DNA of 64,000 nt from Gaiellaceae bacterium (lineage in GTDB: Bacteria > Actinomycetota > Thermoleophilia > Gaiellales > Gaiellaceae). Shown here one piece after another: positions 18,269-25,517 of this stretch. The translations under genes and the position numbers were made by a program. The stretch's first letter is position 1. Each line of letters begins with the position of its first letter. The stretch is taken from NCBI GenBank assembly GCA_026002995.1, contig BPGK01000001.1, forward strand, positions 496,001 through 560,000, in the 5' to 3' direction. The notes under the pieces are model-generated. The model was not told the DNA's origin, searched no databases, and saw only the letters and a program-made list of their open reading frames with translations.

Positions 18269-18770
18269 GTGTGGATGGATAGGGCACGCCTCCTGCTTGC
18301 CGCCGGAGCGGGATACCTGCTGGGGATGGCTCCCTCGGCTGACCTCGCCGTACAAGCGGTTGGGCGAGAAGGCGTGGACCTGCGCCGGGACGGCAGTCGG
18401 AACCCCGGTGCACTACGTCGGCGCCGTCGCCGTGGTGGCGGGACACTGCTATCCAGTCTGGAACGGCTTCCGCGGGCGCAAGGGGCATCGCCACCTCAAT
18501 CGGGCACTGCCTCGCGACGATGCCCTTGTACGCATCCGCTCGATGTCGGGCTCGCCCTCGTCGTCGCGCGCCTCTCGCGTGCGCGCCGGCCTGCGTGGGT
18601 CGGGTCGGTCGTCGCCTCGTTCATGTGGGTCGGAGCAGGTGTCGTGTGGTGGAAGCGTGATCTGCCGACCCTCTGGGGCCCTCGACCCACCGCTGCTCTC
18701 CCCCTCGCAAACGCTGCGACGATGGCCGTCATCGCGCCACGAGCGCTCGAGATCGTCGTCTGTCGTCAGC
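18269..18770 (+). pseudogene. Degenerate glycerol-3-phosphate acyltransferase (PlsY-like)
   Basis: The start and end are in one frame and the middle is in another. Frame one encodes GYLLGMAPSADL and DLRRDGSRNPGA, the PlsY phosphate-binding motif. The next frame encodes VGAVAVVAGHCYPVWNGFRGRKG, the second PlsY motif. Roughly 45 residues between the two are missing. Frame one resumes with WVGSVVASFMWVGAG. Several lesions are required, so this is a decayed gene and not a single sequencing error. Confidence 0.75.
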
Positions 18771-18792
18771 CCGATCAGCTCGCGCTCCAGGG

Positions 18793-19589
18793 GTGGCCTC
18801 GATCCAGGTTTGCAGCGACTCGAGCGCGCTTCTTCCGCAGGAAGAGGAGACCCGGCTCGGAGTCACGGTCGTTCTCGTTCACGTCGTCCTCGACGGCGAG
18901 CCGTTCGACGGTGACACCGACGAGCTCTACGAGCGGCTGGAGGCTGGAGCGAGGGCGACGACCTCGGCTCCGAGCCCCGGGGAGCTGCTCGCGGCGTACC
19001 GCGAGCTCGCCGCCGGCGGGGCTGCCGAGGTCAGTTCGCTCCACCTCGACGCGCGTGTCTCGGGTACCGTCGCGGCCGCCGAGCTCGCCGCCCGAGAGGC
19101 GCCGATCCGCGTCCGCGTTCTCGACACGCGAGCCACGAGTTTCGGTGTCGCGCTCTGCCCCCGGGCCCAAGCGTGGGCTCCCGCGTACGGCCTGGGCGCG
19201 GAGGACGCGGTGGAGAGCGTGCGCAGGCGGGGAAGCTCTCTGCGCAATGCGTTCGTGCGTTCTGTAGGAGGGGGCGGCCGAGCCGCTCCGACTCGGGCTG
19301 GAAGGTTCTGAGTCTCAGCGAAGGACGCGTCGTCGGGAAGGACTCGTGCTCGTCCCCGGAGGAGGCGGTCCGGGTCATGGCCGCTGAGATCGGTGGGCAC
19401 CGTGAGCGGGTGGCCGTTGCGGTGGGACACGCCTCGCGGCGCGTCGAGCCGGGGGCCGACGAGCTTGCGGCCAGCCTCCTCGGCTTCCCGAGCGTGGTCG
19501 GGGTGGAGCGGTATCGGCCCGCCCCCTCGGTCGGCGCGCACACAGGGCCTCGCGCGTTCGGCGTCTTCTGCTATCCGGCCCCGGGCTGA
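18793..19589 (+). pseudogene. DegV-family fatty-acid-binding protein split by a frameshift
   Basis: DegV (FakB-type) proteins bind fatty acids for a kinase. Here the N-terminal half, with VCSDSSALLP and SSLHLDARVSGT, is in one frame to about 19250. The C-terminal half, with VLSLSEGRVVGKDS, VAVAVGHASRRVEPGADEL and a closing segment near VGAHTGPRAFGVF, is in another. Together they make about 265 residues, near the family length of about 280. The second frame ends in TGATG, overlapping the fdhD start, so the gene was probably once translationally coupled to fdhD. Confidence 0.8.
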
Positions 19590-20425
19590 TGGCGCGGACG
19601 GATGCACCGGGAGCGCTACGCTGGCCGCCGGTGACCGACGCGCCCCAGACTCCGCCGCCCTACTCAACGCGGGCGACGCGCGCGCTCCGGCTGCCCGAGC
19701 GGGTCGAGAGCAACGACCTCGTCGCGGTCGAGGAGCCGCTCGAGATCCGCATCGCCGGCGAGCCCGTCGCCGTGACAATGCGCACGCCCGGGCATGACGA
19801 GGAGCTCGCGCTCGGGTTCTGCCTGACGGAGGGGCTCCGGCCGGAGGCCGCGCGGGTGCCCGACGACCTCGCTGCAAACGTCGTCGAGGTTGCGGCACCG
19901 GGCTACGACCCCGCGCACGTGCGTCGGAGCTTCTACACGACGTCGTCGTGCGGCGTGTGCGGGAAGGGGGCGATCGAAGCGGTACGGGTCGAGGCGCCGC
20001 TCGTCGAGAGCGACCTGCGCGTCGACGCTCGGGTCGTGTCCGGGCTCTCCGAGAAGCTGCTCGCCGCGCAGCGCGCGTTCGCCGCGACTGGCGGGCTCCA
20101 CGCGACCGGCCTCTTCTCGGCCGACGGGGAGCTCATCTGCGTGCGCGAGGACGTGGGCCGCCACAACGCGATGGACAAGGTCGTGGGTTGGGCCTTCCGT
20201 GAGGAGCTCCTCCCGCTCGAGCGACATCTGCTCTGCGTCAGCGGGCGCCTCTCCTTCGAGCTCGTGCAGAAGGCGGCAGTGGCCGGCTGCCCGATCGTCG
20301 TCGCCGTCGGCGCGCCGTCGTCGCTCGCCGTCGAGCTCGCCGCGGATCGGAGAATGACGCTCTGCGGCTGGGCACGGAACGGCCGTGTCGCCGTCTACTC
20401 GGAGCCCTGGCGGATCGCTGGCTGA
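19589..20425 (+). CDS. fdhD: Formate dehydrogenase accessory sulfurtransferase FdhD
   Basis: FdhD passes sulfur from a cysteine desulfurase to the molybdenum cofactor, which activates formate dehydrogenase. The 278-residue protein has EEPLEIRIAG, TPGHDEELALGFCLTEG, the catalytic-loop motif SSCGVCGK and EDVGRHNAMDKVVGW. ATG 19589 overlaps the preceding degV frame; GTG 19631 is an alternative start. The next gene encodes a MobA domain, so the two likely form a molybdoenzyme-maturation unit. No formate dehydrogenase gene lies in this window. Confidence 0.95.
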   Translation: MARTDAPGALRWPPVTDAPQTPPPYSTRATRALRLPERVESNDLVAVEEPLEIRIAGEPVAVTMRTPGHDEELALGFCLTEGLRPEAARVPDDLAANVVEVAAPGYDPAHVRRSFYTTSSCGVCGKGAIEAVRVEAPLVESDLRVDARVVSGLSEKLLAAQRAFAATGGLHATGLFSADGELICVREDVGRHNAMDKVVGWAFREELLPLERHLLCVSGRLSFELVQKAAVAGCPIVVAVGAPSSLAVELAADRRMTLCGWARNGRVAVYSEPWRIAG

Positions 20426-20455: not shown

Positions 20456-20468
20456 GGTGTCAGACACC
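20456..20468. repeat. Family-A palindrome GGTGTCAGACACC
   Basis: A perfect 13-bp palindrome (GGTGTC-A-GACACC) between fdhD and the MobA fusion gene. Its GTG is a possible start codon of that gene. I found no second copy nearby, whereas the other six copies in the window come in pairs. Confidence 0.8.
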
Positions 20469-21824
20469 GTCTCGGAGAAGGCCGCGGTCAGCGGGATCTT
20501 GCTCGTTGGGGGCAGGTCCGAAAGATTCGGGTCGGCGAAGGCCCTCGCGTCCTTCCGCGGGGAGACCCTTGCCGAGCGCGCGTGGCGCCTTCTCCACGCC
20601 GTCTGCGACGAGGTGCTCGCGGTCGGCAAGGCTGCGGACGCGCTGCCGCTGCCCTTCCCGGTGCTCGACGACGGCTCACCCGAGCGCGCTCCCGTCTTCG
20701 GGCTCGTCGCCGGACTGCGGGCGGCGACGCACGACACGTGCCTCGCCGTCCCGGTTGACTGCCCGCTCCTGACGACAGAGGCGCTCCGGGAGCTCGCACG
20801 AGCCGTCGCCGTTCCCGGGATAGGGCCGCTTCCCGGCGCATACACGAAGGCGATGCTCCCCGTGCTGGAGGAACGGATCGCCGCCAGAGAGCTCTCGCTT
20901 CGAGGCGTCAACGAGACCGTGGTCGAGCTCGACGAAGCGACTCTCACGAACGTCAACACGCGCGCCGAGCTCTTGGCCGCGGCCGCCGCCGACTGGGCGT
21001 CCGAGCACGAGGACGTCCGCGCGGTCATCGTCGTCGGCTCGCAGGCGCGCCGCGACACGCCAGCCGATCGCTGGTCGGATCTCGACCTCGTCCTCCTCCT
21101 CGACGACCCGCAGCCCTACCTCGACGATGCGTCGTGGGTGCGGGAGCTCGGCAGGCCCGTCCTGACCTTCCTGGAGAGCGCGCCCGACGGGCACGTCGAA
21201 CGACGCGTCCTCTACGAGGAGGGGGACGACGTGGACTTCGTCCTCTTCCCGGTCTCCGCCCTCGAGCGGCTGGAGACGAGCGAGAGCGCGACGGCGCTCG
21301 TCCGGCGCGGCTACCGCGTCCTGCTCGACCGGATCGGCCTCGCCGAGCGCTTAGAGCGGATCGCGCGGACGCGGCCCCCGAGCGCCCTCCCCACCGGCGA
21401 CGACCTCCGCGAGCTCGCGAGCGACTTCTGGTACCACGCGCTCTGGACGGCGAAGAAGCTGCGGCGGGGCGAGGTGTTCTCGGCCAAGGAGTGCCTCGAC
21501 TGCTACCTCAAGGCGCGGCTTGTCACCCTGCTCCGTTGGCACGCGCAGGCGCTCGACCCGTCCGTCGACACCTGGCACGGCGGCCGCTTCCTCGAACGCT
21601 GGGGGGATCCAGGGGCGCTCGCCGGCCTCGAGCGCGCCTACGCCCGCTACGACCTGCACGACGTCGTCCGCGCGCTCTGGGAGACGATCGATCTCTGGCA
21701 GGGGCTCGAGGAGGAGACCGCTCGCCGACTCGGAGTGGAGACGGGCCTCGACCACACAGAGTTGCGGCGCCGCATCTCCGCGGTCGCGCTCGATCCGCGC
21801 CGAGGCTCTACGCTTCGGGCGTGA
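20457..21824 (+). CDS. Fusion of MobA-like guanylyltransferase and ANT(6)-like adenylyltransferase
   Basis: A 455-residue two-domain protein. Residues about 10-180 are MobA-like, with GGRSERFGSAKAL and VDCPLL; MobA attaches GMP to molybdopterin. Residues about 185-455 resemble aminoglycoside 6-adenylyltransferases, with the nucleotidyltransferase signature GSQARRDTPADRWSDLDL near residue 195 and the C-terminal SDFWYHALWTAKKLRRGEVF. The halves are joined in one continuous frame. Two GTGs are possible starts: 20448 and 20457, the latter inside a family-A palindrome. The stop overlaps the GerMN gene start. The MobA half fits fdhD; the role of the second half is unknown and antibiotic modification should not be assumed. 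Confidence 0.85.
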   Translation: MSDTVSEKAAVSGILLVGGRSERFGSAKALASFRGETLAERAWRLLHAVCDEVLAVGKAADALPLPFPVLDDGSPERAPVFGLVAGLRAATHDTCLAVPVDCPLLTTEALRELARAVAVPGIGPLPGAYTKAMLPVLEERIAARELSLRGVNETVVELDEATLTNVNTRAELLAAAAADWASEHEDVRAVIVVGSQARRDTPADRWSDLDLVLLLDDPQPYLDDASWVRELGRPVLTFLESAPDGHVERRVLYEEGDDVDFVLFPVSALERLETSESATALVRRGYRVLLDRIGLAERLERIARTRPPSALPTGDDLRELASDFWYHALWTAKKLRRGEVFSAKECLDCYLKARLVTLLRWHAQALDPSVDTWHGGRFLERWGDPGALAGLERAYARYDLHDVVRALWETIDLWQGLEEETARRLGVETGLDHTELRRRISAVALDPRRGSTLRA

Positions 21825-22597
21825 AGCGGCTGCCGACTCTCCTCGCCGCGCTCGTAACGCTCGTCGCGCTCGCCGGCTGCGGCGGCGACGAGCCCGGGAC
21901 GAGCGGGAGGACGACGGACGGAGCGCCGGCCGAGACACTCGACCTGAGCGTCTACTTCCTCCTCGAAGGCAAGGTGTGGCCAGTGCGACGGACGGTCGAA
22001 CGCACGCCGGCGGTGGCGACGGCGTCGCTCGAGGAGCTCCTCGCGGGGCCGACCGACGAGGAGCGAGACGAGCTCTCGCTCTCCACCGCGATCCCGGAGG
22101 ACGCGGAGGTCGTGTCGCTCGCCGTGCAGGACGGGGTTGCGCAGGTCGCGTTCTCGACGCCACTTCCGAACGCTGCGCTCGCGCAGGTCATCTACACGCT
22201 CACGCAGTTCCCGAGCGTGGACTCCGTCGAGCTGCTCGAGGGGGGCGTCGCGATCCCCGGGTTCGATCGCTCCGACTACGAGGACGTGACGCCAGCGATC
22301 CTGGTCGAGTCGCCCCGCTTCTTCGAGGAGGTGGGGAACCCGGTGCGGGTGCAGGGCACGGCCAATACGTTCGAGGCGACGTTCCAGTACGAGCTGACCG
22401 ATACGGATGGGCGGATCGTCGACGAGGGCTTCGTCACCGCGACCTCGGGCTCGGGGACGCGGGGGACGTTCGACTTCACGACGAAGCGCTACGAGGTCCC
22501 GTTCGACGGCGTCGGCGCGCTGACCGTCTTCGAGCTGTCGGCGAAGGACGGGTCTCGCACGAACCTGCGCGAGATCCCGATTCGCATGAGCCGGTAG
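21821..22597 (+). CDS. GerMN / Gmad2-domain lipoprotein
   Basis: A 258-residue exported lipoprotein from GTG 21821, which overlaps the previous stop. A short signal ends in the lipobox LAGC. A GerMN domain follows, with VYFLLEGKVWPV and AQVIYTLTQFPSVDSV, then an Ig-like Gmad2 domain from about residue 160 with NPVRVQGTANTFEATFQYEL. These domains occur in spore-germination and cell-envelope proteins; in actinomycetes the role is not established. Confidence 0.88.
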   Translation: MKRLPTLLAALVTLVALAGCGGDEPGTSGRTTDGAPAETLDLSVYFLLEGKVWPVRRTVERTPAVATASLEELLAGPTDEERDELSLSTAIPEDAEVVSLAVQDGVAQVAFSTPLPNAALAQVIYTLTQFPSVDSVELLEGGVAIPGFDRSDYEDVTPAILVESPRFFEEVGNPVRVQGTANTFEATFQYELTDTDGRIVDEGFVTATSGSGTRGTFDFTTKRYEVPFDGVGALTVFELSAKDGSRTNLREIPIRMSR

Positions 22598-25504: not shown

Positions 25505-25517
25505 GGTGTCAGACACC
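25505..25517. repeat. Family-A palindrome, right copy, carrying the nnrD start
   Basis: A perfect GGTGTCAGACACC preceded by GTAACACAA. The GTG at 25506 is the only ATG/GTG/TTG between an in-frame TAA (25497) and the first conserved residues of NnrD, so the element appears to supply the start codon. Confidence 0.85.

Follow-up and report, generated by a model that had tools for sequence, protein, structure and literature searches.

The gene that directly follows fdhD in the window, a stretch of 64,000 nucleotides corresponding to positions 496001-560000 of a 2.62-Mb single-contig Gaiellaceae genome, encodes a MobA-like protein fused to an ANT(6)-like nucleotidyltransferase. The fusion is confirmed to be real, spans a genus, has both sites intact, and has a single origin. 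Its N-terminal half probably acts as the MobA for the formate dehydrogenase cofactor and carries an autonomous small-molecule nucleotidyltransferase as cargo. An operon-linked cargo enzyme, rather than a new cofactor step, is the most economical and most likely reading of the gene. The fusion is present in one copy in the genome; its features and those of the adjoining genes are as follows.

19589..20425, plus strand: fdhD, formate dehydrogenase accessory sulfurtransferase, 278 aa (Pfam FdhD-NarQ, 2.3e-63; NCBIfam NF001943, above cut-off).
20456..20468, no strand assigned: palindromic repeat GGTGTCAGACACC, one of 7 exact copies in the window; it contains the fusion's GTG start codon.
20457..21824, plus strand: mobA-ANT fusion gene, 455 aa, GTG start, TGA stop (open frame, domain matches, genus relatives).
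20490..20972, plus strand: MobA domain, aa 12-172, putative molybdenum cofactor guanylyltransferase (Pfam, PDB 2e8b).
20952..21002, plus strand: junction helix, aa 166-182 (secondary structure of the model, alignment).
20988..21335, plus strand: ANT nucleotidyltransferase core of pol-beta type, aa 178-293 (Pfam PF04439, 178-430).
21036..21086, plus strand: catalytic motif GSxxR...D...SDxD, aa 194-210, invariant in 24/24 aligned sequences.
21234-21236, plus strand: third carboxylate, D260, invariant in 24/24 aligned sequences.
21372..21797, plus strand: ANT C-terminal helical domain, aa 306-447 (alignment; retained without the core in species G002).
21821..22597, plus strand: GerM/Gmad2 lipoprotein gene, the next gene of the operon (Pfam Germane 6.7e-16, Gmad2 9.9e-23).

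The original prediction of two complete domains in one 455-residue frame holds: the frame is open, and the protein matches Pfam NTP_transf_3/MobA at aa 13-118 (E = 1.3e-23) and Adenyl_transf PF04439, the streptomycin adenylyltransferase family, at aa 178-430 (E = 1.2e-35). The predicted position directly after fdhD is also correct, with a gap of 31 bases from the end of fdhD at 20425. At its other end, the fusion shares the four bases GTGA of its stop with the GerM/Gmad2 gene. Adjacency of fdhD and mobA is conserved across the loci of the family. Where readable (e.g. G002, G003, G004), the mobA start lies inside the end of fdhD; the start annotated in the window lies in the palindrome instead. 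The exact N-terminus of the fusion in this genome is uncertain, because the annotated GTG sits inside a dispersed palindromic repeat. Exact copies of GGTGTCAGACACC occur at 20456, 25417, 25505, 30476, 30552, 53647 and 53747, seven in all against 0.04 expected. Six of them form three pairs with a spacing of 76-100 bases, able to fold together like REPIN elements, and another copy contains the start codon of an ORF at 25506. Upstream of fdhD (18269-19589), PlsY-like and DegV-like genes seem frameshifted over overlapping ORFs and may be pseudogenes or reflect indel errors in the assembly.

A stop or frameshift at the domain junction, or a fusion confined to this one genome, had been named as outcomes that would undo the prediction, and neither was borne out. 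The same uninterrupted frame is read in the assemblies of five other species of the genus (G001, G003, G004, G006, G007; 65-69% identity), which excludes chance or assembly error as its origin. A sixth (G009) carries the fusion split across two contig ends. Named GTDB records, available for five of these relatives, describe uncultured Thermoleophilia/Actinomycetota, and the carriers form a single genus of uncultured actinobacteria from soil and sediment. The search of other genomes for the domain pair thus returned five intact copies and one contig-split copy, all from this genus. Wide occurrence of the pair was rejected: none of the 103 genomes of the family that were searched has the fusion outside the genus, and among 38 GTDB loci with the ANT subfamily, collected by a pattern-based scan that can miss distant relatives, MobA fusion is found in this genus only. 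We found no description of a MobA-ANT fusion in the papers searched.

The MobA of unfused relatives stops near the equivalent of residue 175 of the fusion. In a structure model predicted from 24 sequences (mean pLDDT 81; mostly ~80-98 in the ANT half and lower in the MobA half), the end of MobA continues into the first ANT helix at aa 166-182, with no flexible linker. The alignment shows a methionine at position 171 in 4 of the 7 fused species, which is probably the former ANT start codon. The fused ANT copies form one clade (support 100/100) nested among stand-alone actinobacterial ANT genes. dN/dS is mostly ~0.2-0.35 in all three parts (MobA, ANT core, helical half), with a strong GC3 bias, and relaxation in the ANT half exceeds that in the MobA half slightly, if at all; the two halves appear to be under similar purifying selection.

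We assign the N-terminal half, as a working assignment, to the MobA of this cell, a molybdenum cofactor guanylyltransferase. It scores 84 bits against the Pfam NTP_transf_3 cut-off of 27, matches PDB 2e8b in sequence (2.1e-12), and finds 2e8b and 1e5k with Foldseek. The protein is divergent and scores below the curated MobA equivalog cut-offs (61 vs 164 bits for NF001457, 50 vs 152 bits for TIGR02665), so it is fold and genomic context that carry the assignment. This context includes an FdhA in the window genome (TIGR01591, 810 bits; cut-off 666) and further enzymes of the DMSO-reductase family. No second MobA was found among the NTP_transf_3 proteins examined, which were the stronger matches, the others being MocA-like or IspD; an enzyme of the bis-MGD type is present with no other candidate MobA identified. 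In six genus relatives, fdhA lies ~2-5 kb from the fdhD-mobA locus, and an in-frame TGA marks the selenocysteine site CEST-U-H of relatives' FdhA downstream of the locus (L071, L072, L074, L077, L078). In the window genome, the sole FdhA is of the cysteine type and lies ~1.57 Mb from the fusion. A two-hybrid study in Methylorubrum is reported to have detected an interaction between FdhD and MobA, and mobA reportedly could not be deleted there (PMC13197769).

The C-terminal half, aa 178-447, is a complete ANT(6)-like nucleotidyltransferase. Its active site is intact, as predicted (G194 S195 ... R198 ... D204 ... S207 D208 x D210, with D260 as third aspartate), and all catalytic residues are invariant in the 24 aligned sequences; the domain scores 123 bits against a PF04439 cut-off of 22. 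With the Pfam streptomycin adenylyltransferase family and AadS as its best families, it might be taken for an ordinary streptomycin 6-adenylyltransferase, ANT(6), protecting the cell from streptomycin-like soil antibiotics. AadK (2pbe) and ANT(6)-Ib (8vxb) are the nearest solved structures by sequence, and in a Foldseek search with the model, which returned 8vxb, LinB (3jyy) and 2pbe, the top match was ANT(6)-Ib with bound streptomycin. Against this reading, the scores fall far short of the curated NCBIfam resistance cut-offs (107 vs 450 bits for AadS, 46 vs 420 bits for ANT_6), and AadS, the nearest characterised relative, is a plasmid enzyme with only ~25% identity. Two signatures in the substrate half of the subfamily, DFWYHxLWxxKKLxRGE and DTWHxxRFLxxW, are absent, also in their shorter forms HxLWxxKKLxRGE and DTWHxxRF, from aligned AadK and ANT(6)-Ib. 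LinB fits the structural model equally well (TM 0.80 on target, against 0.76 for ANT(6)-Ib).

The subfamily that includes the ANT half is ANT(6)-like, uncharacterised and for the most part encoded as stand-alone genes; it was found by sequence in Actinomycetota, Chloroflexota, Bacillota, Thermoplasmata and Haladaptatus. Archaeal ribosomes are generally regarded as streptomycin-insensitive, and the close relatives in Thermoplasmata and Haladaptatus speak further against streptomycin as the substrate. We consider ordinary streptomycin resistance unlikely; annotation of this broad, partly archaeal subfamily would nevertheless tend toward a streptomycin-resistance label. The reading as a mobile resistance gene was rejected, plasmid relatives being 25-38% identical and mostly AadS. 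A link to anti-phage defence or to an MntA-like antitoxin was likewise rejected, since the matches are weak and generic to the nucleotidyltransferase motif; a comparison with phage protein families gave no match.

An alternative use of the domain, and the one originally suggested, is that it nucleotidylates a cofactor or a molybdoenzyme partner. Molybdopterin (e.g. with AMP, giving a mixed dinucleotide), FdhD or formate dehydrogenase would then be the acceptor, and the fusion would channel an intermediate; if true, molybdenum cofactor chemistry would gain a new step. The tight, conserved fusion of two nucleotidyltransferase domains inside an fdhD-mobA operon, with formate dehydrogenase adjoining and similar constraint on both domains, is what such a role would lead one to expect. 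It also predicts that the ANT half is not lost while formate dehydrogenase is kept, yet two species of the genus, each represented by a single MAG, have lost the domain or its core and both retain fdhD, mobA and a selenocysteine fdhA. In G002 (53% complete), the entire catalytic core is deleted in frame and the C-terminal helical half remains. In G010, MobA ends in RISETVVDARPGYSPAR, in register with the C-terminus of the fused proteins and aligning best with RVADIVRDPRPGHTLSP of G002; only 3 of 20,000 shuffles score equally high. This register suggests that the ANT domain of G010 was probably cut out by an in-frame deletion that left a C-terminal scar. The FdhD+MobA tree nests G002 (97/86) but resolves the placement of G010 only weakly (82/25).

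These losses leave the pathway role unsupported. The stand-alone ANT relatives also argue against it: none adjoins mobA or fdhD. Their neighbourhoods share no partner (acyl-CoA dehydrogenase, TetR, hydrolase, GNAT, methyltransferase, FtsK, ATP synthase). In sister genera, MobA stands beside fdhD either unfused or with unrelated tails, GNAT among them. We regard a role of the ANT half in the cofactor pathway as quite improbable. A special form of it, in which the fusion protein supplies the genus's selenocysteine formate dehydrogenase with a mixed dinucleotide cofactor (e.g. MGD plus an adenine form) and G002 and G010 reverted to bis-MGD, strikes us as exceedingly improbable.

The remnant in G002 also bears on whether the ANT half is catalytically dead and serves MobA as a structural or regulatory appendage. 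Despite the loss of its core, this species keeps 62 of the 74 columns that never vary among the fused species, as an appendage might. The 12 changed columns, however, are clustered: 11 fall within aa 310-374, both invariant histidines among them (Fisher p = 0.0007), whereas p ranges from 0.046 to 1 when the columns of the six intact species are split the same way. Such clustering in the histidine segment is expected if catalysis otherwise holds it in place. In the six intact species, moreover, the catalytic residues are all invariant and the core is under purifying selection, and we consider a dead appendage very improbable.

The tails that MobA carries elsewhere in the family are varied. MobA-GNAT fusions occur in G045, G057, G071 and G122, all of genus g6, and in G038; G060 has MobA-FdhD. 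Two further loci carry the following features.

L054 3260-4588: MobA of G013 with a 274-aa tail bearing a phosphotransferase-like HGxxxxN...D motif.
L143 2290-2745: GNAT gene of G015, headed by a C-terminal remnant of MobA, TLVNVDEPPDLERF.

The G013 tail has no Pfam match at E <= 0.01 and is called aminoglycoside-phosphotransferase-like from its HGxxxxN...D motif alone. Separate relatives of this tail are present in other genera of the family. In G015, a g6 genome that is 94% complete, neither mobA nor fdhD was found, and the GNAT appears to have outlived its MobA carrier; G121 (58% complete) and G124 (77% complete) likewise have the GNAT, with mobA and fdhD not found. As the g6 GNAT occurs without mobA, and MobA elsewhere without a partner, either partner can persist alone. 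No species with the ANT half but without MobA was seen in the genus of the fusion.

Under the cargo reading, the MobA half would transfer GMP from GTP to Mo-molybdopterin, giving bis-MGD, which FdhD, encoded just upstream, would sulfurate and load into formate dehydrogenase. The ANT half, related to ANT(6) and LinB, would use an NTP to attach a nucleotide, probably AMP, to a small-molecule hydroxyl. Both activities are inferred, as are the class of substrate and why the two halves were joined. The joining would have happened once, in the ancestor of the genus: a stand-alone ANT gene from actinobacteria would have come to lie downstream of mobA, with loss of the intervening stop codon; the benefit of the link would be shared expression from the fdhD-mobA operon, with no shared reaction. 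Speaking against a mere cargo is the continuous helix predicted at the junction, which is genus-wide and tighter than a casual read-through fusion needs.

Compared with MobA of E. coli (1e5k) and Aquifex (2e8b), the N-terminal half has the same fold and sequence family, the LxGGxSxRFGxxK and PxD motifs, an fdhD operon and a formate dehydrogenase in the genome. It differs in being shorter (~162 aa), in lying below the NCBIfam equivalog cut-offs, and in the 280-aa C-terminal enzyme attached to it. The ANT half has in common with the ANT(6) enzymes (AadK 2pbe, ANT(6)-Ib 8vxb, AadS) the whole two-domain fold, GSxxR and SDxD-type motifs and the third aspartate, but it has substrate-half signatures of its own, is fused to MobA and stands in no resistance context, in addition to its low identity to AadS. 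LinB, the lincosamide nucleotidyltransferase (3jyy), resembles it in fold but has only 17-19% sequence identity. Much closer are the stand-alone ANTs of Micromonospora and Thermoleophilia (L102, L103, L104, L105, L111), which have 45-51% identity and common signatures and differ in being separate genes with neither mobA nor fdhD nearby.

Other fusions of MobA with a second domain in one chain are known, namely MobA-MobB and MobA-MoaC in NCBIfam and MobA-ThiS/MoaD-like proteins in relatives. Their partners belong to cofactor biosynthesis, whereas PF04439, GNAT and the phosphotransferase-like domain do not. The family can be viewed as a natural experiment in which the C-terminus of MobA beside fdhD gained an ANT, a GNAT, a phosphotransferase-like domain or FdhD and sometimes shed it again. 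It shows that two domains can be fused without belonging to one pathway, and cautions against inferring function from fusion alone.
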